Shown here in pieces: positions 5,448-33,773 of a stretch of 64,000 bases of DNA (position 1 is its first letter; every line of letters starts with the position of its first letter). The position numbers and the translations under genes were made by a program. The notes beneath the pieces were generated by a model that was not told the origin of the DNA, made no database searches, and saw nothing but the letters and a program-made list of their open reading frames with translations. This DNA comes from Olivibacter sitiensis DSM 17696 (GTDB taxonomy: Bacteria > Bacteroidota > Bacteroidia > Sphingobacteriales > Sphingobacteriaceae), in contig NZ_ATZA01000008.1 in NCBI RefSeq assembly GCF_000427965.1, positions 13,752 through 77,751 on the forward strand, given 5' to 3'.

Positions 5448-7247
5448 ATGGATAACTTCATTGTCTCTGCCAGAAAATATAGGCCTACGACCTTTGAAAC
5501 CGTAGTAGGGCAGCAGCATATAACCGGCACGCTGAAAAACGCAATCAAGAACAACCAACTGGCTCAGGCCTTCCTGTTCTGTGGTCCGCGTGGGGTGGGC
5601 AAAACTACCTGTGCCCGTATTTTGGCGAAAACGATAAACTGCCAGCATATAACGGCGGATATAGAAGCCTGTGGCCAATGCGAGAGCTGCAGGTCCTTTT
5701 CGAACGGCAATTCCTTTAGCATCCACGAATTGGATGCCGCTTCCAACAATTCCGTCGATGATATACGGAGCCTAATAGAGCAGGTGCGCATACCGCCACA
5801 ATCCGGCAAGTATAAAATCTATATCATCGATGAGGTGCATATGCTCTCGCAGCAAGCTTTCAATGCCTTTCTGAAAACATTGGAAGAACCGCCCAGCTAT
5901 GCCATCTTTATTCTGGCTACTACCGAAAAGCATAAGATATTGCCTACCATCCTGTCGCGATGCCAGATTTTCGACTTCAACCGCATCAAGGTGGAGCATA
6001 TTGCGGCACACTTGGGCAGTATAGCCCAGCGCGAAGGGGTGGCATATGATAAGGATGGCCTATACCTGATAGCGCAGAAGGCAGATGGCGGACTTAGGGA
6101 TGCCCTGTCCATGTTTGATCAAATTGTCAGCTTTTCCAATAAGAATGTTTCCTACCAGGCGGTAATAGATAATCTGAATATCCTGGATTATGACTATTAC
6201 TTTAAGGTCACCGACGCTATATTGGCAGAGGATGCCGCGGCTTGTCTTGTCCTGTTTAATGAAATACTTGAAAATGGATTTGACGGCAACCACTTTATTT
6301 CTGGCTTGGCCTCCCATTTCAGGGATTTGCTGGTAGGGAAGGATAAGGTGACGGTGAAATTGCTGGAAGTGAGCGACAGCATCCGCGAGAGGTATATCCA
6401 GCAGGCCGAAAAGACGGCTGTGGGGCTGCTGCTCTCGGCACTCAACATCGCAAACCAGTGCGAAATCAATTACAGGACAAGCAAAAACCAACGCTTGCAG
6501 GTAGAACTTGCCTTGCTGAAGATGTGCCACATAGCAACGGCAGTGCAAGTGGGCAAGACAAAAGTCCCTACCGGTACAGCCCCAGAGGCTGAAAAAAAAA
6601 ACGACAATAAGTTAGCGGGTAACGCATCGCCCGTGGCGCCCTCCGCTCCGCCCGTGGGCGCGCAAATTCGTCCGCCCCTGCCCGATAAGCCCACCACGGC
6701 TGAGGTAAAGGCAGTAGAGCCAAAGCAGGTGCAGGTGGTCGAAGAGCAAACGAAGCTTCGGGTGCCAAAGTTAAAAGGCATTAACCTGTCACCTTCTGCA
6801 CCTAGCCTACACGATGTCTTTAGTGACAAAAAAGAGAATGGAGCAAAAGATGAGCTGGAATATATCAAGGGAGACGAACGCAATCCGTTCAACTATGATC
6901 AGTTTCTGCAACTATGGCATGCCTATGCCGATAAACTAAAAGCAGCCAATAAGATCAGCTTGTTTACCTTGATGACTGCTAATGCACCTAAGTTACGTGA
7001 TGACTTTAAGATAGAGGTCATCGTGGAGAATACGATCCAAGAAGAACTATTGGTCGAATCAAAGATTGATATATTGAATGACATCAGGGTGAAGCTGCAC
7101 AATTTCGATATAGATCTTATCCCGCTACACATGGAGGTGAACACGGTAAGAACACCTTACACGACCCAAGAGAAATACCAAGCACTGGTAGCCAAAAACC
7201 CAGTACTTGATAAATTGCGCCAAACGTTCCACTTAGGCTTGGATTAA
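5448..7247 (+). CDS. dnaX: DNA polymerase III subunit tau (and probable gamma)
   Basis: 599 residues from the ATG at 5448. Clamp-loader ATPase: Walker A GPRGVGKTT (Lys about 52), a four-Cys zinc module (CQHITADIEACGQCESC), Walker B IIDEVH, sensor 1 LATTEKHKILPTILSRC, then lid and collar domains to about residue 370. A Pro/Ala-rich linker (about 375-470) leads to a C-terminal tau region with little recognisable sequence. It loads the sliding clamp and links polymerase cores to the helicase. A run of ten A (6592-6601) lies right after the collar domain, and both other frames stop within 14 nt, so a second product of about 387 residues (gamma) is likely. Divergent from rpsF. Confidence 0.96.
   Translation: MDNFIVSARKYRPTTFETVVGQQHITGTLKNAIKNNQLAQAFLFCGPRGVGKTTCARILAKTINCQHITADIEACGQCESCRSFSNGNSFSIHELDAASNNSVDDIRSLIEQVRIPPQSGKYKIYIIDEVHMLSQQAFNAFLKTLEEPPSYAIFILATTEKHKILPTILSRCQIFDFNRIKVEHIAAHLGSIAQREGVAYDKDGLYLIAQKADGGLRDALSMFDQIVSFSNKNVSYQAVIDNLNILDYDYYFKVTDAILAEDAAACLVLFNEILENGFDGNHFISGLASHFRDLLVGKDKVTVKLLEVSDSIRERYIQQAEKTAVGLLLSALNIANQCEINYRTSKNQRLQVELALLKMCHIATAVQVGKTKVPTGTAPEAEKKNDNKLAGNASPVAPSAPPVGAQIRPPLPDKPTTAEVKAVEPKQVQVVEEQTKLRVPKLKGINLSPSAPSLHDVFSDKKENGAKDELEYIKGDERNPFNYDQFLQLWHAYADKLKAANKISLFTLMTANAPKLRDDFKIEVIVENTIQEELLVESKIDILNDIRVKLHNFDIDLIPLHMEVNTVRTPYTTQEKYQALVAKNPVLDKLRQTFHLGLD
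6592..6615 (+). promoter_or_regulatory. Candidate slippage site in dnaX (A10 run)
   Basis: Ten consecutive A cover codons 382-385 of dnaX. Gain of one A (or a -1 shift) reads K-R-Q then TAA at 6608-6610; loss of one A (or +1) reads T-T-I-S then TAG at 6613-6615. Either gives a 387-388-residue product ending just after the ATPase/collar domains. Thermus thermophilus dnaX makes gamma by transcriptional slippage on an A9 run at the equivalent place. Confidence 0.6.
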
Positions 7248-7844: not shown

Positions 7845-9731
7845 ATGCCTAAAATATGTGCGTACCTATTTGCCTTGCTTGCTCCGCTGTTTTTCTGCCA
7901 TGGGCTATTTGCCCAGCGTGCGGTTAGGCTGGTAGACAGCCTGAACCAGCATATTTTTACCTATGGTGAAATAGAGCAACTGTACGATAAGGAAGGCAAG
8001 TGGACTTTGAGCGATATACGATCGAAGCGTTTGGCGACGGCTTTTAAGGCCAGTAAGACCAGTACCCCCCAAAATAAGGTCATCAATGGTGTTTATTGGT
8101 ATAAGGTCAACATCGATTTTCAGCCCAAGGACAACAATTATTTGCTGGAGTTTTTTGACCAAACGATAGATCTGCTAGAGGTCTATTTGCCCGATTCAGC
8201 GGGGCGATACAAGGTATACAAGCTAGGCGACGAGCAGGCCTTCTTTGCAAGGAAGGTGAAGCACAAGAATTTTATCGTTCCCCTTTCTCCTGAACTGAAG
8301 GGGCCTACGGAACTGTTCTTCAAGGTGAGGTCCAGGCAGGTAGCCGATATCATTGTGGTACTACGCTCGGCAGATTTTTTCATTAACTATAGCAATGGCG
8401 AGTACTTCAGCTTTGGATTGTTCTATGGCATGATAGCCATTTTCTGTTTCTATAATTTGCTGATGTTCTTTGCCGTGCGCCAGCCTGCCTATCTCTACTA
8501 CGTGGGCTATATGCTCAGCGTGGCCATGTACGAGTTATGTACGGATGGGGTTGCCTTTCAGTACTTGTGGCCCAGTTGGCCCGAGTGGAATCAATACGCC
8601 TTTGCCGTCGTACTGTGCAGCATGAGTGTTTTTGCCATGCTGTTTGCCCAGCGGCAGCTATTGCTCCGGCGCAAGGCTCCCAAGCTGCATCGCTTTATCA
8701 ACTACGTCATTGCACTGCGCATTTCCTTCTTGGTCTTTGCGTTTCTTTTTGATCGCTCCCTGTTGAACTATAAGTTCCTGGAGGCCGTACCATTGCTGGT
8801 CACCTTTGGTGCGGGTATCTATAGCTATGCTCGCGGTTACCAGCCGGCACGCTATTTCGTACTGGGCTATGGCATCCTGTTTTTTGGCTATAGCTATAAG
8901 TTCCTGATCATGCTGGGAGCAGATTGGCTCAATGTCGGTATCATTACCTACTACATCATGAGTTTCAGTTTTATCCTGGAGATGACTTTTCTTTCCCTGG
9001 CCGTGGGCGATAGGGTGCGGATGATGAAAGAAGGCAGGGAAAGGGCACAACGAAGGGTCATTGAGCAAATGAAAATCAATGAGCGGCTGAAAGATAAGGT
9101 CAATAGGGAGCTGGAAGCGAAAGTGATACAGCGTACCAGGGAGTTGATAGAGAAGAATGCCATCATTGAAAAGCAAAACCTGGAGCTCACGGATATAAAT
9201 AAGGAGCTGGCTTTGCAAAAGGAGCAAATAGCACAAATGAACCAACTGCTGAGCTTGGATAACGAGGAATTGAAAGTCAATGTCGAGCAAGTCACAAAGG
9301 CGAGGGCAATGTCTACCAATTTGAGTTTTGATGAATTTAGCAAGGTCTATCCAGATCAGGATGCCTGTCTCCGCTTTCTGGCCGAACTGAAGTGGCGGGA
9401 TGGCTATCGCTGTAAAAAATGTGGGCATGACCAATACTACGTAGGTAATACGCCCTACGCAAGAAGGTGTGCCCTATGCAAATATGACGAGTCCGCCACG
9501 GTGAATACCGTTATCCAAAACGTGAAAATCCCCATTGCCAAGTGCTTTTATCTCATCTATCTCATTTATAGCACTAAAGGTAAAATTTCTTCACATAAAC
9601 TCTCGGAGATTTTGAATATCCGACAGGCAACTTGCTGGGCCTATAGCAATAAGATTCGAGAGAAAATGGATGCCAAAAAGCGAGAGCTGAAAGGATTAAA
9701 GGGCCAGGGATGGGACGATTTGTTAATTTGA
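7845..9731 (+). CDS. 7TMR-DISM receptor fused to IS1595-type zinc-ribbon DNA-binding domain
   Basis: 628 residues from the ATG at 7845. Order: signal peptide (1-25), extracellular 7TMR-DISMED2-like beta-sandwich (about 35-180, GVYWYKVNIDF to LFFKVRSRQ), seven hydrophobic segments (about 190-385), a long coiled coil (about 390-500), and a C-terminal 125 residues matching the N-terminus of IS1595-family transposases: FDEFSKVYPDQDACLRFLAELKW, zinc ribbon C523-x2-C526 / C542-x2-C545, then a helical region (SSHKLSEILNIRQATCWAYSNKIREKM). The DDE/DDN nuclease domain is absent and the gene stops cleanly, so this looks like a domesticated output domain. Known 7TMR-DISM proteins sense extracellular ligands (often carbohydrate) and carry kinase, cyclase or HTH outputs; here a membrane-tethered transcription factor is inferred. 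It sits 343 nt upstream of PUL 1, on the same strand. Confidence 0.85.
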   Translation: MPKICAYLFALLAPLFFCHGLFAQRAVRLVDSLNQHIFTYGEIEQLYDKEGKWTLSDIRSKRLATAFKASKTSTPQNKVINGVYWYKVNIDFQPKDNNYLLEFFDQTIDLLEVYLPDSAGRYKVYKLGDEQAFFARKVKHKNFIVPLSPELKGPTELFFKVRSRQVADIIVVLRSADFFINYSNGEYFSFGLFYGMIAIFCFYNLLMFFAVRQPAYLYYVGYMLSVAMYELCTDGVAFQYLWPSWPEWNQYAFAVVLCSMSVFAMLFAQRQLLLRRKAPKLHRFINYVIALRISFLVFAFLFDRSLLNYKFLEAVPLLVTFGAGIYSYARGYQPARYFVLGYGILFFGYSYKFLIMLGADWLNVGIITYYIMSFSFILEMTFLSLAVGDRVRMMKEGRERAQRRVIEQMKINERLKDKVNRELEAKVIQRTRELIEKNAIIEKQNLELTDINKELALQKEQIAQMNQLLSLDNEELKVNVEQVTKARAMSTNLSFDEFSKVYPDQDACLRFLAELKWRDGYRCKKCGHDQYYVGNTPYARRCALCKYDESATVNTVIQNVKIPIAKCFYLIYLIYSTKGKISSHKLSEILNIRQATCWAYSNKIREKMDAKKRELKGLKGQGWDDLLI

Positions 9732-10074
9732 TAATACGCGAACCAAAGAAATAGCGAAAATTATTATATTGATAATTAGTGCGTTGTCTTTTTCTTTCAA
9801 TGTTGTTATTCCGTCTCGAAGTGTACATTTTACACCTATCTATTTCCGATTCCTAAAAAAATGATTATCAGTGCTTTATGCTAAATGTGTCCTAGGTTGT
9901 TATTACGTATTAAATTTAATATAATATATTGATTTACAGTTATTTGTGATTAAATAACTCTTGTTTTACACCTTTCTTTGTGTTTATCTTTGCCTCGTGA
10001 TCTGTTGGTTGCTTGCACGGTATCGATCACACCTAACAATTATATATTTCAATTTATTAACCAATTTATAATCT
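9732..10074. other. Intergenic region before PUL 1
   Basis: 343 nt, AT-rich. It contains the PUL 1 promoter (9961-9992) and a GTGATC/GATCAC inverted repeat just after it (9997-10030) within the presumed leader, which could be an operator. No open frame of interest. Confidence 0.5.
9961..9992 (+). promoter_or_regulatory. PUL 1 promoter (-33 TTG, -7 TATCTTTG)
   Basis: TTG (9961-9963) and TATCTTTG (9985-9992) are 21 nt apart, both matching the Bacteroidota consensus. The susC-like ATG is 82 nt downstream, a leader length usual for susC genes. Confidence 0.65.
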
Positions 10075-13002
10075 ATGAAACGGAAATTTTTACTGTTCAT
10101 TTCCTGTTGGTTGATGGCTTTTTGGGCCTATGGCCAAAGCAGATCAATTAAAGGAGTGGTAAAGGACGAAAACGGAAATACCTTGCCAGGTGTCTCCGTA
10201 CTGGTCAAAGGGACTTCTTCTGGTACATCGACCGATATTAATGGGGCCTATGCAATTGATGCATCGCCCGACGCTATTTTGGTTTACAGCCTTATTGGCT
10301 ATAGATCCATAGAGGAGCCGGTAAATAACAGGGAGACAATCAATGTACAGTTTGTCCAAATGGACAATGTGCTGGATGAAGTGGTCGTGGTGGGTTACGG
10401 CACCCAGCGCAAGGGAGATATAACGGGCTCGGTGTCCACCGTCTCTCAAAAGGAATTTGACAATAGGCCCAATACGCAGTTCGGCAGTATCATACAAGGC
10501 AAAATGGCCGGTGTGCAAGTACTGTCTACCTCGGGAAAGCCATCTGCCGGTCTGGATATCCGTATTCGCGGTACCAGTTCCATAGCCGCGAGTTCCAGTC
10601 CGCTGTACGTGGTGGATGGTGTGCCCACCTCCGATACGCGATCGATAAACCCATCGGATATTGAAAGCATGTCTGTCTTGAAGGATGCCTCATCGGCGGC
10701 CATTTACGGCGCACAAGGGGCCAATGGGGTGGTGCTCATCACAACCAAGAAAGGGAAATCGGGCGAGCCCGTATTTGACCTGAATGTCTACAACGGTTTC
10801 ACGCAGCCTTGGCGTACCCTCAAAGTGCTCAATGCCGAGCAATACCGCGACCTGATGACGGAGCTGGGGCAGAATACGAATTGGGATTTGTATACCGCCA
10901 ATACGGACTGGCAAAGGGAGGTCTTTCAAAACGGTTCCTCGCAGAACTACCAGCTGTCTGTTTCGGGCAAAACCGAAAAGACCAGTTACTTTTTGGGAGG
11001 AGGCTATGTGAAGCAGGTAGGTTCTGTAAGAAGCTCGGAAATGGAACGATTCAACTTTCGCATCAATTTGGAGCAAGAGCTGAAGAGCTGGTTGCGCGTA
11101 GGGACAAATGTGGCCTATACGCAATATAAAGATGTAGATGTCAGCGATAATCAAGCCGTCAACCAAGGTGGGGTGATCTTAGGCATGTTGAGTACGCCTC
11201 CGGTCATCGGTACTTATAAAGAAGACGGAACCTTTACGTCCAATCCCTTTCAAGATTGGGAAAACCCAATTGCCTTTACCGATGGAACCGATAGGGGCTA
11301 TAAGAATCAACGGCTGATAGGTAATTTCTATACGGATGTGACCTTGTTGGAAGGATTGACCTTTAGGACCAATTTTGGCCTTGACGCCAATAGCGCCATG
11401 TACGATTTCTTTCAGGATCCGTTCCGCACCAGTTACGGAAGGGCACGGAAAGGCATAAGCAGAAACACGACGGATATGAACCAGTTCTACATATGGGACA
11501 ATACCGTGAAATACCAAAAAGAAATTGGCGAGCATAAGCTGGACGCCTTGGCCGGCACGGTGATTCAGAAAAACCGCTGGGAAAACAATGCCGTAGAGAC
11601 CCAGGGCTTTGCCAGTTCATCTATTCCAACTCCAAATGCGGGTTCTGTCTTGCAGACTGCAACGGCATCAAAATCAGAGAAAGCCAATGCCTCCTTCATC
11701 AGCAGGGTGAACTATAGCTTTCAGGACAAGTACTTGCTGACCGTAAATTTCCGGGTTGATGGTTCGTCCAATTTTGGCCCATCCAATCGCTGGGGCTATT
11801 TCCCTTCGCTATCCGCGGGATGGCGTCTGTCCGAAGAGGATTTCGTGAAAAACTGGGACCTGTTTTCGGATTTCAAGCTACGCGCCGGATGGGGATTGGT
11901 AGGGAATGACAATGTGGGGTCTTACGCCTATCTGGGCCGCGTGGGCATAGGGGCCAACTATCCCATAGGCGGCGAGGCCTTGCCGGGCTCTTACCCCTCT
12001 ACCATACAAAACGACCTGCTGAAGTGGGAGTCCACCGAGCAGACTAATGTAGCGGTCGATATGGGTTTCTTCAACAACAGATTGACCGTGACGGCCGAAG
12101 CCTATTATAAAAACACGACCGACCTGTTGCAATACGTCTTGGTACCCAAAACAACGGGATTTGATAGCGGCCTGCAAAATGTGGGCAGCCTTCAAAATAA
12201 GGGATTGGAATTTCAGGTGAGCTCCATCAACACCAATGGCCCCCTGCAGTGGAGCACCGACGCCAATATTTCCTTCAATAGAAACAAGGTCGTTAAAGTG
12301 ATTGGCGGAGAGCTCTTCAGTGGCAACATTAATGGTAGGGGAGAAATCAGCCTTAGCAGGGAGGGCAAGCCGCTTGGCATGTTCTACGGCTATGTAGCTG
12401 GTGGCGTGGATCCCAATAGTGGCGATATGTACTATTTAGCGGCCGATGGACAAACGACCTTCACGCCGGTGGCTGCCGATAGGCAATTCATTGGTAACCC
12501 CAACCCCGATTTCACCTATGGTATTACCAATAATCTGTCCTACAAAGGATTTGGTTTGAACGTTTTCCTTCAAGGCGTTTACGGCAATGACATCTTCAAT
12601 GCTACCCGGGTAGATACCGAGGGGATGCTCGACCCCAAGAACCAGACCATTGCCGTAATAGATCGATGGAGAGAGGTAGGGGATATTACCGATATACCAC
12701 GTGCGCGTTTTGCCAACATCAACAATTCATTGGCATCCACTCGTTTCATTGAAGACGGATCCTTTCTGCGCTTGCGAGCGGTTACCTTGAGCTATAGCCT
12801 GTCGCAAGCATTGCTCAGCAAAATTAAAGTGAAAAATCTTCGGGTTTACGCAACGGGCGAGAACCTATTTACGATCACGAAATATACTGGCTTCGATCCG
12901 GAAGTCAATGCGTTTGGAGGTAGTAATACGGCCTTGGGAGTCGATTACGGTACCTACCCGCAAGCTCGTAACTTGATTTTTGGACTGAACATGTCATTTT
13001 AA
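10075..13002 (+). CDS. SusC/RagA-type TonB-dependent transporter (PUL 1)
   Basis: 975 residues. Signal peptide (1-20), carboxypeptidase-D-like regulatory domain (about 23-105, IKGVVKDENGNTLPGVSVLVKGT), a plug domain starting VVVGYGTQRKGDITGSVSTV with the RIRGTSS and GVVLITTKKGK motifs, then a 22-strand-type beta-barrel ending in a C-terminal Phe (GLNMSF). No STN domain for anti-sigma signalling is present. SusC proteins import oligosaccharides through the outer membrane with the SusD lid encoded next, only 11 nt away. The downstream GH30 enzymes suggest a beta-glucan substrate, probably beta-1,6-linked. Confidence 0.95.
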   Translation: MKRKFLLFISCWLMAFWAYGQSRSIKGVVKDENGNTLPGVSVLVKGTSSGTSTDINGAYAIDASPDAILVYSLIGYRSIEEPVNNRETINVQFVQMDNVLDEVVVVGYGTQRKGDITGSVSTVSQKEFDNRPNTQFGSIIQGKMAGVQVLSTSGKPSAGLDIRIRGTSSIAASSSPLYVVDGVPTSDTRSINPSDIESMSVLKDASSAAIYGAQGANGVVLITTKKGKSGEPVFDLNVYNGFTQPWRTLKVLNAEQYRDLMTELGQNTNWDLYTANTDWQREVFQNGSSQNYQLSVSGKTEKTSYFLGGGYVKQVGSVRSSEMERFNFRINLEQELKSWLRVGTNVAYTQYKDVDVSDNQAVNQGGVILGMLSTPPVIGTYKEDGTFTSNPFQDWENPIAFTDGTDRGYKNQRLIGNFYTDVTLLEGLTFRTNFGLDANSAMYDFFQDPFRTSYGRARKGISRNTTDMNQFYIWDNTVKYQKEIGEHKLDALAGTVIQKNRWENNAVETQGFASSSIPTPNAGSVLQTATASKSEKANASFISRVNYSFQDKYLLTVNFRVDGSSNFGPSNRWGYFPSLSAGWRLSEEDFVKNWDLFSDFKLRAGWGLVGNDNVGSYAYLGRVGIGANYPIGGEALPGSYPSTIQNDLLKWESTEQTNVAVDMGFFNNRLTVTAEAYYKNTTDLLQYVLVPKTTGFDSGLQNVGSLQNKGLEFQVSSINTNGPLQWSTDANISFNRNKVVKVIGGELFSGNINGRGEISLSREGKPLGMFYGYVAGGVDPNSGDMYYLAADGQTTFTPVAADRQFIGNPNPDFTYGITNNLSYKGFGLNVFLQGVYGNDIFNATRVDTEGMLDPKNQTIAVIDRWREVGDITDIPRARFANINNSLASTRFIEDGSFLRLRAVTLSYSLSQALLSKIKVKNLRVYATGENLFTITKYTGFDPEVNAFGGSNTALGVDYGTYPQARNLIFGLNMSF

Positions 13003-13013
13003 CCAATTAAGCC

Positions 13014-14492
13014 ATGAAAAAGAAAGATATATATCTATACTGTACGCTTACCCTCCTGTTCACAGGAACGGCATGCAATAAATTCTTGGATTTAAATCCT
13101 ATTTCCGTTGCCACAAGCAGCAATGCCTATGTCAGTGCCGGAGATGCCGAGGCAGCATTGACGGGAGTTTACAATTCCTTTACCGCCATGGAATATTATG
13201 TCTGGGACAACATCAACTTCAGCGATGTCATGTCCGACAACTATTACGCAGGGGGAGACGATGCCGAGATATACGCCATCGATAACCTGGAATTGACACC
13301 GGTGAATAGCCGGATCTACCAAAATTGGGGAGAGATGTATGACGCCATCAAGAAAGCAAACGTGGTCATACAGCAGACGCCCGAAATAGCTGATCCAAAA
13401 TTGGACATTGATAATAGGAGGAACCAGATTATTGGCGAAGCATCCTTCTTGCGTGCCTTGCATTATTATCAGCTGGTCAAGGCTTTTGGAGGAGTGCCTA
13501 TCGTGACAGAACCGGTAAGTAGCTTGGATCCCGGCGAGACACAGATTCCCAAATCGACCGAAGAAGAGGTCTATGAGCAGATCGTGTCCGATTTGACCGT
13601 CGCCATGGAAAACCTGCCCGACAGTTATGGCAATGCCGCCAACGTGAACAAGGCCAGGGCTACCAAAGGTGCCGCCAATGCCCTGATGGCTAAAGTGAGC
13701 GCCCAGCGGCCAAACAGGGATTACAATAAGGTCTTGGAACACGCCAATGCCGTCATTTCCAGTCCGGCCAACTATAGCCTCATTCCTTTTCCGGATTTGT
13801 TTGACGGGGCACATTACAACAATGCCGAATCGATCATGGAGGTACAATACCTTGGAGGAAACTACGCCAACTGGGGGCCGCAGATGTTGCTCCCGCCATC
13901 CATCAGTGGCGATTCCTGGCGCAAGTTTGTGACCCCATCCAAGGACTTGGTAAAGGCTTTTGACGACGAGGGGGACGAGATCAGGAAAAACGCCAGTATC
14001 CTATTCGAGAACGTGGAATGGACGGACGAGTTTTGGTCCATCAATACCGGTGGCAGCGTCCCCTTTGCCTATAAATGGAAAAGTGCCAACGGATGGGCGA
14101 GTACCAATAGGCAGTATATCCTCCGTCTGGGCGATATCGTGCTCCTGAAAGCCGAGGCCCTGAACGAGCTGGATAGGCCCGCCGAAGCCTTGGAGGCCCT
14201 GAACGAAATCAGGCAGCGGGTCAGTTTGGATCCCGTGACGACCACCGATAAGGCTGCCCTGCGCCTGGCCATTGAAAAGGAAAGACGGCTGGAGCTTTGC
14301 CAGGAGGCGCAGCGCTGGGACGACCTCAAGCGTTACGGGCGTGCCCTTGCCGTCATGAACGGCCTCAACGAGATAGACCTGCGTACCAATAGGCGAAAGG
14401 AATACAATATGCAGGAGTATAAGCTGTTGCTGCCTTTCCCGCAGAACGAATTGAACCGTAATCCAAATCTTGTTCAAAACCCCGGATACTAA
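13014..14492 (+). CDS. SusD/RagB-type outer-membrane lipoprotein (PUL 1)
   Basis: 492 residues. Lipoprotein signal peptide with lipobox LFTGTAC (Cys about 21), then the SusD alpha-helical TPR scaffold (LDLNPISVATSSNAYVSAGDAEAALTGVY at the start; IGEASFLRALHYYQLVKAFGGVPIV in the centre) and the C-terminal RWDDLKRYGRA...LLPFPQNELNRNPNLVQNPGY end typical of the family. It forms the surface lid on the SusC barrel and binds glycan. It lies between susC and a GH30 gene within one operon. Confidence 0.95.
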   Translation: MKKKDIYLYCTLTLLFTGTACNKFLDLNPISVATSSNAYVSAGDAEAALTGVYNSFTAMEYYVWDNINFSDVMSDNYYAGGDDAEIYAIDNLELTPVNSRIYQNWGEMYDAIKKANVVIQQTPEIADPKLDIDNRRNQIIGEASFLRALHYYQLVKAFGGVPIVTEPVSSLDPGETQIPKSTEEEVYEQIVSDLTVAMENLPDSYGNAANVNKARATKGAANALMAKVSAQRPNRDYNKVLEHANAVISSPANYSLIPFPDLFDGAHYNNAESIMEVQYLGGNYANWGPQMLLPPSISGDSWRKFVTPSKDLVKAFDDEGDEIRKNASILFENVEWTDEFWSINTGGSVPFAYKWKSANGWASTNRQYILRLGDIVLLKAEALNELDRPAEALEALNEIRQRVSLDPVTTTDKAALRLAIEKERRLELCQEAQRWDDLKRYGRALAVMNGLNEIDLRTNRRKEYNMQEYKLLLPFPQNELNRNPNLVQNPGY

Positions 14493-14520
14493 AGATAGAT
14501 TGTCAAACGCAATAGAAGGA

Positions 14521-15978
14521 ATGATGAAAAAAATGATTTTTGCCATAATGGCCATAGTTTTGACCTCTCTGGGACTCTCGTCCTGTAGGGATGTGGGCAT
14601 GAGCCTACTGCCCCCACCCCCACGCTTGGAAGGTGACGGGGATGTGTTGATGTGGCTCACCAAGGGGGACCGCAGCGCACAGCTGGAAAAGCAAAATGCG
14701 CTGCTCAATTTTGGTACGGCTACCAACAGTTTGCCGACCATTACGATTAATGACCAGGCCTCGTACCAGCGAATGGATGGCTTTGGCTATACGCTCACCG
14801 GAGGCAGTGCGGACCTGATCAATGCCTTGCCCGCCAGTACGAGGGATGCCCTGTTGCAGGAACTTTTTTCCGACGACTCCTTGGCCATCCGCGTCAATTA
14901 CCTACGGCTCAGTATAGGTGCTTCCGACCTCAGTGCCGAGCCGTTTACCTATAACGAGATGCCCTCCGGACAGACCGACCCCGATCTGGTCAATTTTTCC
15001 ATACAGAAAGAGCAGGAGAGCCTGATACCCGTGCTCAAGCGGATATTGGCCATCAACCCCGATATCAAGATATTGGGATCGCCCTGGACGGCACCACGTT
15101 GGATGAAGACCACCTTCAACTATGTTGGGGGTAAGTTGCGCCCGGAATATTACACCGTCTATGCCGGCTATTTGGTAAAGTACATCCAGGCCATGCAAAG
15201 CGAGGGCATCACCATCGATGCCATTACGCCGCAGAACGAGCCCTTGCACGGGGGCAACAATCCCAGCATGGTGATGGAAGCGGCAGAACAGGCAGATTTC
15301 ATCAAAAATGCCCTGGGACCTGCCTTTGAGTCCGCCGGTTTGGCTACCAAGATCATCATCTACGACCACAATGCCGATAGACCGGACTATCCCATCAGCA
15401 TCCTGGAGGATGCCGATGCCAATAGGTTCGTAGATGGCTCGGCCTTTCACCTCTATGCCGGCAATATGTCGGCCCTCAGCCAGGTGCACCAGGCCTTTCC
15501 GGACAAAAATGTGTACTTCACCGAGCAATGGGTGGGCGGGCCCAGCAATTTTGCCGAGGACCTGCGGTGGCATATCTCCACCATATTGATGGGGGCCACT
15601 AGGAACTGGAGCAAGAACGTGCTCGAATGGAATCTGGCTGCCGACGCCAATTACGGGCCCGCCACCGACGGGGGATGTACCAATTGCCTGGGCGCGCTGA
15701 CCATACAGGGTGCCGCTGTGGAACGGAACGTGGCCTATTATGTCATTGGCCATGCATCCAAGTTCGTGCCCGATGGATCCCTGCGCATCCAGTCGGACAT
15801 CGTCAGCAATTTGCAGAACGTGGCTTTCAGGACCCCGGAGGGAAAAATCGTGTTGATCGTCATCAATATGAACGGGTCCGAGCAAAGCTTCAATATTGCC
15901 TATGGTGACGAGCAGGTGGAGACCACGCTGGAGGCCGGCGCAGTGGCCACCTACGTGTGGGATGGAGCGGAGTCATAA
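14521..15978 (+). CDS. GH30 glycoside hydrolase lipoprotein, copy 1 (PUL 1)
   Basis: 485 residues from ATG 14521 (14524 is equally possible, after AAGGA). Lipobox LGLSSC puts it on the outer membrane. The GH30 (beta/alpha)8 barrel carries the acid/base Glu in PQNEP (E240) and the nucleophile in YFTEQW (E335), plus SPWTAPRWMKT and QNEPLHGGNNPSM. The flanking beta-sandwich uses both termini. The NNPSM-type sequence resembles Bacteroidota beta-1,6-glucanases of GH30 (subfamily 3), an inference. A near-duplicate lies at 17730-19199. Likely an endo-acting surface enzyme that makes oligosaccharides for SusC/D. Confidence 0.9.
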   Translation: MMKKMIFAIMAIVLTSLGLSSCRDVGMSLLPPPPRLEGDGDVLMWLTKGDRSAQLEKQNALLNFGTATNSLPTITINDQASYQRMDGFGYTLTGGSADLINALPASTRDALLQELFSDDSLAIRVNYLRLSIGASDLSAEPFTYNEMPSGQTDPDLVNFSIQKEQESLIPVLKRILAINPDIKILGSPWTAPRWMKTTFNYVGGKLRPEYYTVYAGYLVKYIQAMQSEGITIDAITPQNEPLHGGNNPSMVMEAAEQADFIKNALGPAFESAGLATKIIIYDHNADRPDYPISILEDADANRFVDGSAFHLYAGNMSALSQVHQAFPDKNVYFTEQWVGGPSNFAEDLRWHISTILMGATRNWSKNVLEWNLAADANYGPATDGGCTNCLGALTIQGAAVERNVAYYVIGHASKFVPDGSLRIQSDIVSNLQNVAFRTPEGKIVLIVINMNGSEQSFNIAYGDEQVETTLEAGAVATYVWDGAES

Positions 15979-15999: not shown

Positions 16000-17730
16000 A
16001 TGAAAAGATATTTAAAATCATGGCTGGCCCTTTTATTCCTCCTGGTAGGTTTGGGTGCCTGTAAGAAAGATAATTTGGATGCGCTGGGGCAATGGGAGTT
16101 TACAGGGCCCGTCCTGTCGTCACCGGCGGCCGATACATCCATCGTACTGGACAACGAGAACCCCCTGGCTAACGTACGGTTCCAATGGGAGAAGGCCGCC
16201 ACTAGCCAACGCTTCAACATTACCTACAAGGTAGTGCTGGTACATCCCGACAGTACGACGGTCAACGACCCCTGGCTATCCGTCAGTGCGGCCAACAACG
16301 GGGCGGCACGCTATGCAAACATTACCAATAAGGTCATTGATGAGGCCTTGGCGGCCCAAGGCTATGAAGTAAATGACGAGGTGCCACTCAAGTGGGGCGT
16401 GGTGGCCGAGGCCTTGGGTAGGCAGGTGTTTGGCTTCCTGCCCTTGACCATCACCCGACTGGAAAGGGAGGAAATACCGGAAAACCTTTACATAGCCGGG
16501 GCGGCGACCGAGGTCAATACCGATGTCAGCAACGCCATCCGGATGAAGCCTATCCGGAAACAGGACGGGTCCGGTACGGGTATTTTCGAAATCTATACCT
16601 CCCTGCAAACAGGAGGAGGATTCCGTTTCTATGCCCAGCGAAGCGCCCAAGGCAGGGTCATTGGCGGAAGCAATGGCACCATCAGGAACAATGGTGAGGC
16701 CATCACCGTCAGTGAGAGTGCCACGTACCGCATCCGTATAGACCTGGAGGCCAATACCTATTCGCTGCTCAAGATAGACAAATGGAGCATCGTGGGCAGT
16801 GTGATTGCCGATGGTTGGGGAGGCGATGAACCTTTGGAATACCAGGGAGGCGGTATATGGAGAAGCTCGGTCAATCTGCTCGATCCTGCTGGCGAGGATG
16901 CCCGTTTTATATTCAGGGCCAACGGCGATTGGGACCTGGGGATGAAAAGGGTAGAGTCTACGGCCAACACGGTGCTGATGGAAAATGCGGCCGAAGAGCT
17001 TGGCTTTGCGTTGGAGGACATTCCCCTTACGAGCTTTGGCAGGCATATCGTCACCTTGGATCTATCTGCCGAAGGTTACACCTACCAGATAGAGCAGGAC
17101 AATAGCGTGGAAACGCCCACTACCACACCTGACAGGCTGTTCCTGATTGCCGATGGGGAAGCAGCCGTGGAATTTACAAAGGATGGCAATCGTTTTACCA
17201 GCCCCAATTTCATACCCTTGCAGGCCGGAAAGCCGTATTATTTCAGCGGCAGCGAAAATGGCTCCGGCCAACGGTACACACTGAGCGGCACGCTTGGCCT
17301 GGCCGACGATTTGAGTGCCGATAACGTACGCGGTAACGTGGAATTTGGTGTCAGCGACAATCCGTTCCAGGTGAACCAGGACCAGGCATATAACATAACG
17401 GTCGATTTTGGTGAGGCTAGTTTGGCGTGGAGGTTCTACAATATCAAGTTGTTCCATTGGGACGATTGGGAGGCCCGTAGGGAGTTGCGGATGAACTATG
17501 TTCACCCCCTGCAGTTTGCGCTGACGGCCGATCTGAACGCAGGGTACAACTCCAAGTTCATATCGCCCTGGGATGTAGAATTGAGCAGTCCTACGCCTAC
17601 GGCCATGGAGGGGCAGTTGACCTCCGACGGACAGGATATCAAGGCAACGGCCGAATCTGGTAGTTATGTGGTTCGTATTGTCGTCAACGCAGACTTTAAC
17701 GGAGGAACGTATCAATTTGAAAAGCAATAA
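16000..17730 (+). CDS. SusE/SusF-like surface glycan-binding lipoprotein (PUL 1)
   Basis: 576 residues with lipobox LVGLGAC (Cys about 21). The N-terminal part (about 35-155) resembles the SusE Ig-like domain (FQWEKAATSQRFNITYKVVL), and tandem CBM-like beta-sandwiches follow (about 155-245, 250-360, 370-470 and 470-576), seen as repeated patterns such as LYIAGAAT, WSIVGSVIADGWGGDEPLEYQGGGIWRSSV and LFLIADGEAAVEFTKDGNRFTS. Such proteins hold glycan at the cell surface. Its position between two GH30 genes supports a role with the same substrate. No enzyme motif is visible. Confidence 0.85.
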   Translation: MKRYLKSWLALLFLLVGLGACKKDNLDALGQWEFTGPVLSSPAADTSIVLDNENPLANVRFQWEKAATSQRFNITYKVVLVHPDSTTVNDPWLSVSAANNGAARYANITNKVIDEALAAQGYEVNDEVPLKWGVVAEALGRQVFGFLPLTITRLEREEIPENLYIAGAATEVNTDVSNAIRMKPIRKQDGSGTGIFEIYTSLQTGGGFRFYAQRSAQGRVIGGSNGTIRNNGEAITVSESATYRIRIDLEANTYSLLKIDKWSIVGSVIADGWGGDEPLEYQGGGIWRSSVNLLDPAGEDARFIFRANGDWDLGMKRVESTANTVLMENAAEELGFALEDIPLTSFGRHIVTLDLSAEGYTYQIEQDNSVETPTTTPDRLFLIADGEAAVEFTKDGNRFTSPNFIPLQAGKPYYFSGSENGSGQRYTLSGTLGLADDLSADNVRGNVEFGVSDNPFQVNQDQAYNITVDFGEASLAWRFYNIKLFHWDDWEARRELRMNYVHPLQFALTADLNAGYNSKFISPWDVELSSPTPTAMEGQLTSDGQDIKATAESGSYVVRIVVNADFNGGTYQFEKQ

Positions 17731-19199
17731 TGTATAATAAGAAATATAGAACCAGGTTTTTGGGAAGGTGTTTGATCGCCTCCTCAAGAGCTTGCCATCG
17801 CATGATAAGCGGTTTGGCTTTATTTTCCATAATTGGATTCTTGGTAGCCTGTCAAGCGACTTCGGAGCAGCAAATCCAAGCCTACTACACCAAGGGCGAT
17901 AGGAGCGCCCTTTTGGAACCGATGGGCGAGGTGGCCGTATTCGGTCAAGAGAGAGAGGCCCATGCCGTGACCATTACCGTAGATAGCGATAGCACGTTCC
18001 AGGCCATGGATGGCTTTGGTTATACGCTCACCGGCGGCAGTGCCGATCTGATCCATGCCCTGCCCGAAGACATGCAGGACAGTCTTTTGCACGAACTGTT
18101 TTCAGACGGGGAAAATGCCATCCGTGTCAATTACCTGCGCATCAGTATAGGTGCCTCCGACCTGAGTGCCTCCGTCTTTACCTATGACGAAATGCCCGCC
18201 GGGGAAACGGATCCCGAGCTGCGGCATTTTACCATGGATAAGGAAAGGGAGTCCTTGATACCCGTCCTGAAAAAGATCGTGGCTATCAACCCCGCCATCA
18301 AGATCCTCGGCTCCCCCTGGACGGCCCCTACCTGGATGAAGACCAATCAATCGTTCAAGGGCGGAAGCCTCAAAGAGGCCTATTACCAGGCCTATGCGGA
18401 TTATTTCGTGAAATATATCCGGGCAATGGCCGATGAGGGGATTTCCCTGGATGCCATTACCATACAAAATGAGCCCCTGCACCCCGGCAACAACCCAAGC
18501 ATGTACATGGAGGCACAAGAGCAGGCAGACTTTATTAAGACAGCTCTGGGCCCTACGTTTGAGCGGGCTGCAATCCGTACCAAGATCATCGTGTACGATC
18601 ATAATGCCGATCGGCCAGATTACCCCCTGCACATCCTGCAAGATCCGGAGGCGGCCAAGTATGTGGATGGATCTGCCTTTCATCTCTATGGGGGGCAGAT
18701 ATCGGCCCTTTCCACCGTGCATGAGCAGTTTCCCGAAAAGCATATCTATTTCACGGAGCAATGGGTGGGCGGCCCGGGCAATTTTGCCCAAGACTTGCAA
18801 TGGCATATATCCACCTTGATCATTGGAGCAACCAGAAACTGGAGTCGCAATGTGCTGGAATGGAACCTGGCTGCCGATGCGCAATACGGGCCGCATACCG
18901 ATCAAGGGGGCTGCACTTCCTGCCTGGGTGCCATCACCATTCAGGATGGGGAGGTACAGCGCAACGTGGCCTATTATGTCATCGGCCATGCATCCAAGTT
19001 TGTGCCGGATGGCTCCAGGCGCATTGCCTCCAACCTGGTGGAAGCTTTGCCCAATGTGGCATTCTTGACCCCCGAAGGCAAAAAAGTGTTGATTGTCATC
19101 AATACGGGCAAGGAGGATCAAGCATTTCAAATTGCCCATGCGGGCAAAGCGACAGCTGTCCAGCTTAACGCTGGCGCAGTCGCTACTTATATTTGGTAA
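17730..19199 (+). CDS. GH30 glycoside hydrolase lipoprotein, copy 2 (PUL 1)
   Basis: 489 residues from the ATG that overlaps the previous stop (TAATG). A start at 17802 would give a more conventional lipoprotein signal (MISGLALFSIIGFLVAC); from 17730 the signal is long and very basic. Catalytic Glu pair: IQNEP (E248 from 17730) and YFTEQW (E343). It shares long identical runs with copy 1 (DGFGYTLTGGSADLI, YLRxSIGASDLSA, RNVLEWNLAADA), with synonymous and a few amino-acid changes, so the two arose by fairly recent duplication. Probably the same beta-1,6-glucanase activity with shifted product range. Confidence 0.9.
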   Translation: MYNKKYRTRFLGRCLIASSRACHRMISGLALFSIIGFLVACQATSEQQIQAYYTKGDRSALLEPMGEVAVFGQEREAHAVTITVDSDSTFQAMDGFGYTLTGGSADLIHALPEDMQDSLLHELFSDGENAIRVNYLRISIGASDLSASVFTYDEMPAGETDPELRHFTMDKERESLIPVLKKIVAINPAIKILGSPWTAPTWMKTNQSFKGGSLKEAYYQAYADYFVKYIRAMADEGISLDAITIQNEPLHPGNNPSMYMEAQEQADFIKTALGPTFERAAIRTKIIVYDHNADRPDYPLHILQDPEAAKYVDGSAFHLYGGQISALSTVHEQFPEKHIYFTEQWVGGPGNFAQDLQWHISTLIIGATRNWSRNVLEWNLAADAQYGPHTDQGGCTSCLGAITIQDGEVQRNVAYYVIGHASKFVPDGSRRIASNLVEALPNVAFLTPEGKKVLIVINTGKEDQAFQIAHAGKATAVQLNAGAVATYIW

Positions 19200-19219: not shown

Positions 19220-20683
19220 ATGGATAATAAAATATTTCTTTCATTTGCCTTTTTGGCGGTTGCTTGTACGCCATCCGTTAAGCAATCGGAGCAAAAACAG
19301 GCGGCGAAAATAGCTATAAGCAAAAGACAGGTGGAGCTCATCGTGACTGCCAAGGATAGTAACTGGCGGCTGACCACCGTAGATACCCTGCAGTTCCGAC
19401 CATTGGCTCAACCGGTGGAGACCGATGTCGTGGTGTTCGTAGATCCCGCAAAGACCTTTCAGGAAATGGTGGGCATAGGCGGTGCCATTACCGACGCCTC
19501 GGCAGAGGTATTTGCCGAACTGCCCGAAGCGAAAAAGCAGGAATTTCTTCGGGCTTATTATGACAAAGAGCGGGGTATCGGCTACAGCTTGGCTAGGACA
19601 AACATCAACAGCTGTGATTTTTCCAGTGGCAGCTACACCTATGTGTCCGATGGCGACAGCACATTGAGCAGTTTTGATATTGCGCACGACAAAGCTTTCA
19701 AAATTCCGCTCATAGAGGCGGCTAGGAACGCGGCGGGAAACGACCTGCCCTTGTTCGTCAGCCCTTGGTCTCCGCCCGCCTGGATGAAAGACAATAAGAA
19801 CATGCTTCAGGGAGGAAAGCTGCTGCCACAATATAGGGGGGCATGGGCAGCCTACTACATCAAGTTTATACAGGCTTATGAGCAACTTGGGATTCCCGTT
19901 TGGGGCCTTACCGTACAAAATGAGCCCATGGCCACGCAGACTTGGGAATCGTGCCTCTACACAGCAGAAGAAGAAAGGGATTTTATTAAGGAATACCTCG
20001 GGCCAGCCTTGCACAAGGCGGGTATGCAGGACAAGAAACTGATAGCTTGGGATCACAACAGGGATTTGCTATATCAAAGGGCCAGTACCGTACTCCATGA
20101 TCCGGAAGCGGCCAAGTATGTGTGGGGCATCGGTTACCACTGGTATGAAACGTGGACTGGTGCGGGCAACAACTTTGAAAGCATGCAACGCGTGAAAGAG
20201 GCATTTCCCGATAAGCAATTGATCTTTACGGAAGGGTGTATCGAGAAGTTTGATCTGACAGAAGTAAACAGCTGGCGATTGGGCGAGCACTATGGCAAGA
20301 ACATGATACACGATTTCAACAACGGTACCGCTGCTTGGTGCGATTGGAATATCCTATTGGACGAAAAAGGCGGACCAAACCATGTGGGCAACTTTTGCTT
20401 TGCTCCCGTCCATGCCGATCTACGTAGCAAGGAGCTCATCTATACCAGCGCCTATTATTACATCGGTCATTTCTCTAAATACATCAAATCGGGAGCCAAG
20501 CGCATCGTGAGTTCGCCCAGTCAGGATCGCCTGTTGAGCACTGCGTTTATCAATCCAGATGGAGGCATCGTGGTGGTGGTCATGAACCCTACGGATGATC
20601 CTATTGATTACAAATTATGGATAGATGGGGCGGCAACGGACGTGAAGGCGGCGGCGCACTCCATCGGCACATTGTTGCTGTAG
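19220..20683 (+). CDS. GH30 glycoside hydrolase lipoprotein, copy 3, divergent (PUL 1)
   Basis: 487 residues with a very short lipoprotein signal (lipobox FLAVAC, Cys about 16). GH30 motifs: VQNEPMATQTWESC (acid/base E235) and IFTEGC (nucleophile E338), with GIGGAITDASA in place of DGFGYTLTGGSA. It is much closer to the glucosylceramidase-like GH30_1/GH30_3 branch than to copies 1 and 2, so it probably has a complementary specificity, for example exo-action on released oligosaccharides. Last gene of PUL 1. No GH3 beta-glucosidase follows, unlike the Bacteroides beta-1,6-glucan locus. Confidence 0.88.
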   Translation: MDNKIFLSFAFLAVACTPSVKQSEQKQAAKIAISKRQVELIVTAKDSNWRLTTVDTLQFRPLAQPVETDVVVFVDPAKTFQEMVGIGGAITDASAEVFAELPEAKKQEFLRAYYDKERGIGYSLARTNINSCDFSSGSYTYVSDGDSTLSSFDIAHDKAFKIPLIEAARNAAGNDLPLFVSPWSPPAWMKDNKNMLQGGKLLPQYRGAWAAYYIKFIQAYEQLGIPVWGLTVQNEPMATQTWESCLYTAEEERDFIKEYLGPALHKAGMQDKKLIAWDHNRDLLYQRASTVLHDPEAAKYVWGIGYHWYETWTGAGNNFESMQRVKEAFPDKQLIFTEGCIEKFDLTEVNSWRLGEHYGKNMIHDFNNGTAAWCDWNILLDEKGGPNHVGNFCFAPVHADLRSKELIYTSAYYYIGHFSKYIKSGAKRIVSSPSQDRLLSTAFINPDGGIVVVVMNPTDDPIDYKLWIDGAATDVKAAAHSIGTLLL

Positions 20684-26233: not shown

Positions 26234-29002
26234 TCAGGAATAGTCGCCCTGCTGCTTTTTGAAAGCCGATGGGCTAATGCCATATTTGTTTTTGAAGAGC
26301 GTGGCGAAGTAAGTGGGTGAAGAAAAGCCGGTTTGGAGAGCAACTTCGTTGATCGGAATATCCATTTTCAGCAAGTGCTTGGATTTCTTCAACCTACGGT
26401 TCACAATATAATCGTTCACGCTGCAGTCCAAGAGGACTTTTACTTTACGATAAAGCTGTACACGTGATATACCTATCTGTTTGCAGATGGCATCCACGCC
26501 AAATTTTGAATCGCCCAAATGCTGTTCCACCAGTGCCGACAAGTTGTTGAGGAAACGCCTATCGGTAGTGCTAATGCTTGCCCCGTCGGTATCGTTGCTT
26601 GGCACTATCTCACTTACAAAACGTTGTTTCAGCCCTTGCCTGTTAGCAATCAGGTTGTGAATGATGGTCTTGAGGTGATTCACATTGAATGGTTTGGTCA
26701 GATAGGTATCGGCCATAGACATCAATCCCTCATTGATCTGCTCTTCGGTGTCCATAGCAGAGAGCAAGATGATGGGAGTCGACGAAGTTCGGGTATCGTT
26801 TTTCAAACTTTTTACCAGTTCGATGCCGCTTTTGCCGGGCATTACCACGTCGCTGATGATGAGGTCAGGCACCTTACTAAATGCAAGACGCATCCCGTCT
26901 TCGGCGTTGGTAGCCGAATAGATTTGATAGGAACTTCCCAGGGTAGCGTGTAGAAACCGTAAAATTTCCTCATTGTCGTCAATGATCAGCAGTGCATGTT
27001 CTCTAGGCACGCCACCGTCGTCAATGCCTTGGTCAGCTGAGTTCAACGATGTGTGAAATAAGTTGGCCTCCGAAATGCCTTTTTCCTGCTTGTCTTTCTC
27101 TGGTGTAGATTTTTCCAGTTCACTTAGGTGAGCATCACCTACGGGGAGGCGCAGAGCAAAAGAAGTACCTTCATTCTCCTTACTGCTCACCGTAACGTTG
27201 CCATGATGCAGCTCAATGATATCTTTCACGAGTGCCAGCCCGATCCCAGAGCCACCCGTACTATATTCTCCTTGATAGAAGGGATCAAAAATATGCTCTA
27301 TATGGGCTTTGTTAATGCCTTTTCCATTGTCTATCACGCGAATCACAAGATAATCTCCAAAGGTATTTTGTTGTATTCGTATGGTGATCTTACCATTCTT
27401 GGGCGTGAATTTAAACGCATTGGAGAGCAGGTTGTACATTACTTTCTCCATTAGGTCGGCATCGAACCAAAGATGGGTGATAGCACTTCTGTTCTCTATC
27501 TGTATGGGTATGTTCTTTTGCATGGAGAGCGGCTTGAACGACTGGGCGATTTGGTGCATAAATTTATACACATTCTGCGAAGAAGCCCTTAGCTTGAGCT
27601 TTTCGTTCTCCAGTCTTTGCAGGTCTATCAATTCCGACACGAGGTTGAGCAATCGCAAGGCATTGCGCTTTATCAATAGCAATTGATCCTTGGCACTTAC
27701 GTTGAGCTCGCTAGTCCTTAGTAGCTCCTCAATAGGAGCCAGGATCAAGGTAAGAGGTGTTTTGAATTCGTGCGAGATATTGGTGAAGAAATTTATTTTT
27801 GCTTGCGATGCCTCTTTCACCCGATCGTTCATTTCAATAAGCTGTTGTTGCTGATTCCGAATTTCGGCATTCTGATGTTCCAAATGCTTGTTCTTGTCCC
27901 AATTGCTTTTCAATAGGTAAAAAGAGACCCCTGCGAATACGATGGCTAAGACCAGGCTCAGCACCAAGATATTGAGTACACTTTGTTGGTTTCTGTAGAC
28001 TTTGGCTTGCTCATCTAGGAGTTTTTGCTGCTCATCAATATCTTTTTGCTGATTGTCGATGCGGTCCGCCTGCATCTTCATCAACTCCACGTTGCTAGAG
28101 TCTATCACCAGGGTATGAAGCATGTTGTCCCGCTGATAGGGCGTTTTTTGCAATATGGCGACAGCAGTCTGCACAGCTTCCTTCCCGCCAGTAGCATAAA
28201 GCATAGACGCACTGACGAGCTTTTTGGATATGTTGTCTAAACCATTTCCCTCGCCAGGAAGCGCATCCACCCCCACGATCGTGAGGTTTTTGGCCACTCC
28301 TTTTTCTTGCAGCGCTAGCCTCGTTCCAAGTGCCATTTGGTCATTGAAGGCAAATATGGCATCTGTATTGGCTAGTTTCTGCATATTCAGCGCTACCATT
28401 TTGCTTGCCGTATCCTTGAGCCACTGTCCGTTCAGCGAGGCGATTACCTGCATCTGGAGATGTGGTTTCAGCGCTTCGCGAAATCCCTTTTGACGCTCTA
28501 TGGTTGCCGATGAGCCCGGCAGGCCGGTCACTTCTGCAACGCTGCCTTTTCCCCCCATTTTATGTGCTAGGTACTGACCGGCAAGGAAGCCTATGTTGTA
28601 ATTGTCCGCTCCCACATAGGCATTATACAGGCCAGAAGAGGTCTTTCTATCGGTGACGATAACGGGTATGCCCTGTTGAAATACGGAATCGACTATGGGC
28701 GTTAGCGGCTGCGCTTCATTGGGAGAGATGATCAAGAGATCTATCCCCTCTTTTAGCAAGGCATTGACTTGTTCAATTTGCATCTCGTTACTTCCCCCGG
28801 CATCCATGTATATAAATTCTACTTCTGGATGAAAGGACAGTTCGCGTTTCATCTCCTTCAACATGGTCTCCCGCCAGGCATCATTGCCGATACATTGCGA
28901 AAATGCTATCCTGTACTTCTTTTCCCCCTTGTTTTGGGAGCATGAAGGAAAGAAAATACAACATATGGCGCAAAGTACTATAAGAGAAAAAAAACGATGC
29001 AT
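26234..29002 (-). CDS. Hybrid two-component system regulator with sugar-binding sensor (PUL 2)
   Basis: 922 residues from ATG 29002. Order: signal/lipobox-like N-terminus (FPSC), a periplasmic-binding-protein domain of the ribose/LacI type (about 28-315: YRIAFSQCIGNDAWRETM, ISPNEAQPLTPIVD, TDRKTSSGLYNAYVGADNY), linker, transmembrane helix (about 345-366), HisKA with NISHEFKTPLTLILAPIEELL, HATPase (DNGKGI, GSGIGLALVKDI), receiver (LLIIDDNEEIL, LIISDVVMPGKSGIEL, YLTKPF) and an AraC HTH. BT1754 of Bacteroides thetaiotaomicron has this same architecture and binds fructose. Divergent from the transporter and GH32 genes, it presumably activates PUL 2 when fructose reaches the periplasm. Confidence 0.93.
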   Translation of the reverse strand: MHRFFSLIVLCAICCIFFPSCSQNKGEKKYRIAFSQCIGNDAWRETMLKEMKRELSFHPEVEFIYMDAGGSNEMQIEQVNALLKEGIDLLIISPNEAQPLTPIVDSVFQQGIPVIVTDRKTSSGLYNAYVGADNYNIGFLAGQYLAHKMGGKGSVAEVTGLPGSSATIERQKGFREALKPHLQMQVIASLNGQWLKDTASKMVALNMQKLANTDAIFAFNDQMALGTRLALQEKGVAKNLTIVGVDALPGEGNGLDNISKKLVSASMLYATGGKEAVQTAVAILQKTPYQRDNMLHTLVIDSSNVELMKMQADRIDNQQKDIDEQQKLLDEQAKVYRNQQSVLNILVLSLVLAIVFAGVSFYLLKSNWDKNKHLEHQNAEIRNQQQQLIEMNDRVKEASQAKINFFTNISHEFKTPLTLILAPIEELLRTSELNVSAKDQLLLIKRNALRLLNLVSELIDLQRLENEKLKLRASSQNVYKFMHQIAQSFKPLSMQKNIPIQIENRSAITHLWFDADLMEKVMYNLLSNAFKFTPKNGKITIRIQQNTFGDYLVIRVIDNGKGINKAHIEHIFDPFYQGEYSTGGSGIGLALVKDIIELHHGNVTVSSKENEGTSFALRLPVGDAHLSELEKSTPEKDKQEKGISEANLFHTSLNSADQGIDDGGVPREHALLIIDDNEEILRFLHATLGSSYQIYSATNAEDGMRLAFSKVPDLIISDVVMPGKSGIELVKSLKNDTRTSSTPIILLSAMDTEEQINEGLMSMADTYLTKPFNVNHLKTIIHNLIANRQGLKQRFVSEIVPSNDTDGASISTTDRRFLNNLSALVEQHLGDSKFGVDAICKQIGISRVQLYRKVKVLLDCSVNDYIVNRRLKKSKHLLKMDIPINEVALQTGFSSPTYFATLFKNKYGISPSAFKKQQGDYS

Positions 29003-29305
29003 AGATAGCCTGCCTTTAAAGTTTATTGGTGAAAGGTACAAATTTTTCTTTTTTTGAGCGGTCAGGCTCGGTGAAGTGTGTTGAAAATACACTATTCATC
29101 AAACTGCTCTTTATGGTTCAATATTTAAGGTTTATAATACAAAATTAAATTATCAAAAACTAATTGTTAAATTAAAGTTTTGTTTTACAGTGATTTATGG
29201 TTATGTAATATTTAGGTACATTTTTTAAATAATTTGAAACTATAGACCCTATAAAAAGTACGCGATCTGTCTACTTTAGCATCTATAAACCTAAAGAAGA
29301 TAGTT
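29003..29305. other. Divergent promoter region of PUL 2
   Basis: 303 nt, AT-rich. On the minus strand TACCTTTC (29038-29031), one base off TAnnTTTG, lies 28 nt before the regulator ATG. On the plus strand TACTTTAG (29272-29279) is a weaker candidate before the transporter. AraC-type binding sites are expected here but cannot be identified by eye. Confidence 0.4.
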
Positions 29306-33700: not shown

Positions 33701-33773
33701 GGATCCGGAAAATCCCGGTTTTGGATACCCCAACCCCCTGGTCGTCACGGCAGGTGTTAACGTACGGTTTTAA
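30703..33773 (+). pseudogene. SusC/RagA-type transporter, frameshifted (PUL 2)
   Basis: Two open frames together encode a complete SusC: signal peptide, carboxypeptidase-D-like domain, plug (VVTGYQTERKKDLTGAV, RIRGVGTLNNNDPLYIIDGVPT) and barrel ending NVRF. The first frame stops at 31933-31935 after residue 410; the barrel continues in the frame entered near 31920. Reading ATC-CCG-TGC as ATC-CCC-GTG would restore LPIIPVHTVDGIGWGG, so one C is missing from a C run. Either a real one-base deletion or a sequencing/assembly error. No slippery heptamer is present. If real, the outer-membrane pore of the fructan system is truncated and non-functional. The restored protein would be about 1023 residues. 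Confidence 0.9.

Follow-up and report, generated by a model that had tools for sequence, protein, structure and literature searches.

How does a bacterial membrane receptor come to end in the DNA-binding part of a transposase, and what would such a protein control? This question is raised by a 64,000-nucleotide stretch of the genome of Olivibacter sitiensis DSM 17696 (hereafter the window), in which a seven-transmembrane receptor gene lies directly upstream of a glycan-utilisation operon. Control of such operons in Bacteroidota has been described in terms of hybrid two-component systems (HTCS), ECF/anti-sigma pairs and SusR-type regulators (PMC10316084, PMC10766802). We present here the architecture and conservation of the receptor, the single capture from which its output derives, its linkage to the operon and a conserved repeat pair that is tied to the receptor. 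Our main reading, to which we assign a probability of roughly 0.85, is that the receptor acts on the glycan-utilisation operon as a membrane-tethered one-component transcription factor, one that does the job of SusR with a transposase-derived DNA-binding domain.

The open reading frame 7830/7845-9731 on the forward strand encodes 628 amino acids counted from the ATG at 7845. A sequence-only reading had described its product as a complete 7TMR-DISM receptor with signal peptide, extracellular sandwich, seven membrane segments and coiled coil, and both the Pfam domains and an AlphaFold model agree with this description. The 7TM and DISMED2 domains score above their Pfam cut-offs (Table 1), and the model (pLDDT 84.6) places in order a signal helix, the sandwich, seven transmembrane helices, a long helix and a head composed of the ribbon and a helix-turn-helix (HTH). 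A single helix spans residues 366-488 of the model, with low pLDDT at 454-483, and a search of PDB structures with the full-length model matched the RetS sensor domain. Pfam detects no kinase, receiver, cyclase or AraC domain in the 628-residue protein. The receptor thus shares its extracellular and 7TM domains with 7TMR-DISM proteins of known output (kinases, GGDEF, HTH) but differs from them in its IS1595 zinc ribbon-HTH output, and our literature search found no description of a 7TMR-DISM protein with this output. One receptor gene elsewhere (L301:112-2208) carries a long, apparently exact tandem duplication inside the coiled coil.

Table 1. Features of the receptor gene, the downstream intergenic region and the adjoining operon (window positions)
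Feature	Position	Strand	Basis
7TMR-DISM receptor with IS1595-type zinc ribbon/HTH output	7845..9731	+	ORF, Pfam, AlphaFold model
Signal peptide, approx. residues 1-24	7845..7916	+	Sequence; N-terminal helix in model
Periplasmic 7TMR-DISMED2 sandwich, residues 43-173	7971..8363	+	Pfam, 83 bits
Seven-transmembrane domain 7TMR-DISM_7TM, residues 186-390	8400..9014	+	Pfam, 151 bits; seven helices in model
Long helix / predicted coiled coil, residues ~391-495	9015..9329	+	AlphaFold model
Zn_ribbon_IS1595, residues 503-547, four invariant Cys	9351..9485	+	Pfam; homologue alignment
IS1595 transposase HTH region, residues 560-617	9522..9695	+	NCBIfam NF033547 positions 2-62
Operator-like repeat 1, GTTGTTATTCCGTCTCG, diverged copy	9802..9818	+	Aligns with conserved repeat in congeners
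Operator-like repeat 2, GTTGTTATTACGTATTA, 94 bp from repeat 1	9896..9912	+	Congener alignment; pair score
Candidate Bacteroidota -7 element, TATCTTTG, 89 bp after repeat 2 start	9985..9992	+	Element scan
SusC-like TonB-dependent transporter, first gene of predicted target operon	10075..13002	+	Pfam
SusD-like lipoprotein	13014..14492	+	Pfam
GH30 glycosidase	14470..15978	+	Pfam
SusE/SusF-like surface glycan-binding protein	16000..17730	+	Pfam
GH30 glycosidase, best solved match 5NGK	17730..19199	+	Pfam; phmmer
GH30 glycosidase	19220..20683	+	Pfam

The C-terminal tail had been likened to the DNA-recognition end of an IS1595 transposase with a C523/C526/C542/C545 ribbon, and profile searches confirm that the match is real. 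Zn_ribbon_IS1595 is found at 27.9 bits in the whole protein and 31 bits in the tail alone (Pfam cut-off 25.4 bits), BLASTP aligns the tail with an IS1595 transposase from the host's bacterial family at 40% identity over 124 amino acids (E 5e-34), profile-profile comparison with IS1595 transposases gives 99.8% probability over 122 columns, and the four cysteines are invariant among 57 homologues. Residues 560-617 match only the first 62 of the 215 positions of the NCBIfam IS1595 model (33.9 bits against a cut-off of 75), which indicates that the HTH is present and that the DDE nuclease domain is absent, as the sequence-only reading had also held. A structure search with the tail returned no significantly similar solved structure. 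The receptor therefore has the zinc ribbon and HTH in common with IS1595-family transposases but differs in being fused to a sensor, vertically conserved and devoid of the DDE domain.

The origin of this output as a captured transposase head, likewise proposed earlier, is supported by a tree of 70 DNA-binding domains, built on few columns and weak at its inner forks, in which all 45 receptor domains and one propeller fusion fall on one side of a single branch with 96/97 support. The receptor clade is sister to one subgroup of IS1595 transposases, and this placement of all receptor domains in a single clade argues for one capture followed by spread. The propeller fusion (L084:9112-12381), nested among the 7TM receptors in the tree, carries the same output on an HTCS-type Reg_prop/Y_Y_Y propeller sensor. 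Conversely, in one genome (G005) the 7TM sensor of the receptors is joined to a LuxR/GerE-type HTH output, the HTH scoring just under the Pfam cut-off. The natural reading of these sequences is that sensor and output are separately exchangeable and that one DNA-binding output has been swapped for another. A search of related loci with the tail matched only two solo Flavobacteriaceae reading frames; these encode a 153-residue zinc ribbon/HTH protein without nuclease at the same place in two genomes (5974-6435 in both L014 and L015), possibly another domestication.

Full-length orthologues at 58-61% are present in all four congeners, which makes the fusion more than a chance event. Within the host's bacterial family, full-length copies occur in 84 of 251 genomes, often several per genome (E <= 1e-150, manual tally of the result table). 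The tail is also found on frames of 600-700 amino acids in families f12, f15, f36 and f49 of the class, with the domains verified on one example each. Additionally, complete copies reside on named plasmids of Persicobacter, Flammeovirga and Aureibacter, where their neighbours are GH3/GH16/SusD genes, a ribokinase operon and GH43/GH97/GH3 genes, respectively; the zinc ribbon of the Aureibacter copy falls just below the Pfam cut-off, and NCBI names the plasmid copies "7TM diverse intracellular signaling domain-containing protein". Among 61 genomes assigned to Bacteroidaceae by 16S signature, the tail profile matched transposases and fragments and no receptor fusion. Taken together, the sequences describe the receptor with transposase-type output as a large, old family with hundreds of relatives within one phylum.

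Neither the susC-susD-GH30 operon nor the repeat pair downstream of the receptor figured in the sequence-only reading. The GH30 protein encoded at 17730..19199 scores 280 bits in phmmer against 5NGK as compared to ~160 bits for glucocerebrosidases, and 5NGK is, we assume, the GH30_3 endo-1,6-beta-glucanase BT3312. The association with glycan genes extends well beyond the window. Among 65 receptors from the host's bacterial family, the next gene on the same strand is susC in 39 and GH30 in 7, whereas susC is next to none of 20 kinase-type DISM paralogues (p 6e-7 for the contrast with the receptors), a control set that constitutes one orthologous group. When six genes are considered, a susC or GH30 match is found for 61/65 receptors as opposed to 2/20 kinase-type paralogues. 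It is very probable that the receptor directly switches on the adjoining glycan genes.

The gap between receptor and susC contains two direct copies of GGTATTAAAGCGTATCA in the same orientation, ~92 bp apart. Such repeats are spaced 86-94 bp in 38 of 39 receptor-susC gaps of the same bacterial family, the 39th being that of the window, where the pair has diverged, and the heptamer AGCGTAT is found in 35 of 44 gaps against 0.45 expected. The window repeats score singly at 4.2 and 7.0 bits (maximum ~28); as a pair they align in register with those of the congeners and outscore 500 of 500 shuffles. A whole-genome search of 251 genomes recovered the pair in 32, once per genome; every one of the 32 carries the receptor (Fisher p 5e-18), and a reversed control gave 1 match. 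These pairs sit between receptor and susC in 31 of the 32 cases; in the genome designated G028, the sole pattern-matched pair is upstream of another susC ~18.5 kb away. At two loci (L058 and L062), inserted DNA parts the receptor from susC, encoding in L062 a transposase-like protein, and the repeats remain with susC. Where GH30 takes the place of susC, a variant repeat pair lies upstream of GH30. No pair was found beside about a dozen same-family receptors that precede neither susC nor GH30, and beside receptors of families f12, f15 and f49 nothing consistent rose above shuffles. In most loci, a TAnnTTTG/A element follows 88 or 99 bp past repeat 2, two spacings that differ by about one helical turn, and this spacing is the strongest sign that the pair may be a transcriptional operator. 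A comparison with the inverted repeats of several IS1595 copies, whose ends are mostly not firm, showed no convincing likeness that would derive the operator from transposon ends. TGATWATCA-like boxes (window ~9868-9880 and 9930-9945) are conserved between and after the repeats in the gaps of loci L041-L068. Two of the loci hold an additional repeat pair, spaced 77 bp at L046:15689-15782 and 90 bp at L066:3886-3992; both are possible further targets.

We propose that the periplasmic sandwich senses a glycan breakdown product, which at the window locus would probably be a 1,6-beta-gluco-oligosaccharide. The signal would travel through the seven-helix domain and a presumably dimeric coiled coil to a pair of zinc-ribbon/HTH heads in the cytoplasm, whose ancestor is the DNA-binding end of an IS1595 transposase. 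These heads would then bind the two direct repeats ~92 bp apart upstream of the susC or GH30 gene and, once bound, would activate rather than repress transcription from the downstream -7 (TAnnTTTG) promoter. It is homology, together with the linked repeat pair, that suggests sequence-specific DNA binding by the receptor. The sequence-only reading had summarized the protein as ligand outside, DNA inside and no phosphorelay. This outline, its DNA binding still presumptive, gains support from the absence of kinase and receiver domains, the sibling with a LuxR-type HTH, the fusion to a propeller sensor and the upstream direct repeats.

What ties the protein to the DNA element is co-occurrence, and one could accordingly suppose that the receptor belongs to the operon, that a different regulator binds the repeats and that the zinc-ribbon tail works through protein-protein contact. 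Zinc ribbons can indeed bind proteins, and the TGATWATCA boxes close to the pair hint at a second factor. Nevertheless, we consider this arrangement improbable, as the repeat pair was detected in no genome that lacks the receptor, follows the receptor to GH30 and distal susC targets, and faces an output that comprises the entire transposase DNA-binding region including the HTH. Less probable still is that the pair belongs to susC as an RNA or leader element and has no relation to the receptor. Its location in the susC upstream region, and its persistence there when the receptor is displaced, would fit such an element, but the pair also precedes GH30 genes that adjoin receptors, lies upstream of a predicted -7 element at the 88 or 99 bp spacings described above, and is missing by score from SusR-type susC loci.

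The host genome does carry IS1595 copies at contig ends, which might suggest that the gene is a recent fusion without function, or a receptor gene that a since-decayed transposase has entered. This reading is already refuted by conservation, and we give it practically no weight: every congener has an orthologue at 58-61%, the four cysteines do not vary, the receptor domains form one old clade, and the receptor gene is flanked by dnaX and the conserved susCD operon, with no insertion sequence on either side. The occurrence of the same architecture in 84/251 genomes, in other families and on plasmids likewise rules out a fusion that is unique to this genome or unstable.

The preferred reading, a tethered regulator of the adjoining operon, finds its closest parallel in SusR-type proteins, which are membrane-spanning one-component regulators encoded immediately upstream of susC-susD-GH30 (PMC5481569, PMC3878776). 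These regulators (TPR-DUF6377 with a C-terminal HTH; e.g. B. thetaiotaomicron BT3705 and BT3309) occupy the same operon position as the receptor. The published locus order is regulator, susC, susD, GH30 and binding protein, and the window has susC, susD, GH30, a SusE/F-like gene and two more GH30 genes after the receptor. For SusR-type regulators, direct repeats were predicted 67 or 77 bp apart and read as the sites of dimers (PMC3878776), so that long-spacer direct repeats upstream of susC are common to them and to receptor loci (86-94 bp), a likeness of analogy and not of membership. Operon position and repeats could suggest that the receptor belongs to the SusR family, an assignment that we reject on sequence: in Bacteroidaceae, the regulators encoded ahead of the genes most closely related to the window susC are TPR/DUF6377 proteins with a single transmembrane segment and an HTH without zinc ribbon, and neither the receptor nor the tail profile matches any of them. 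Their susC gaps do not score with the receptor repeat matrix, and several have repeats of other sequence 66-67 or 77 bp apart. Consequently, the receptor would work like SusR without being one. The receptor shares with HTCS the control of a glycan operon by one polypeptide but lacks the histidine kinase, receiver and AraC domain.

We think it likely that these receptors form a phylum-wide class of Bacteroidota glycan-operon regulators, derived from one IS1595 capture and acting from the membrane on paired direct-repeat operators, a fourth type alongside SusR, HTCS and ECF/anti-sigma systems that has to date been annotated solely under the NCBI name quoted above. If so, a common and unrecognised type of regulator is added to glycan-operon control in this phylum, and, with a predicted operator in hand, regulons could be read directly from the genomes of soil and marine Bacteroidota. 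The family would also provide a clear bacterial example of a transcription factor that owes its DNA-binding domain to a transposase, one in which donor subgroup, single capture and presumed target sites are all visible, as well as a tractable system for studying how a protein fixed in the membrane can reach two sites on DNA ~92 bp apart.

The window contains further glycan-related genes. One SusC-like gene is apparently split into two overlapping frames (30703-31935 and 31923-33773) by a frameshift or an assembly error. On the reverse strand, 26234-29092 encodes what reads as an HTCS-like protein, in which a periplasmic sensor of the sugar-binding-protein type is combined with a kinase, a receiver and an AraC end, and this gene adjoins a sugar transporter gene at 29306-30646.
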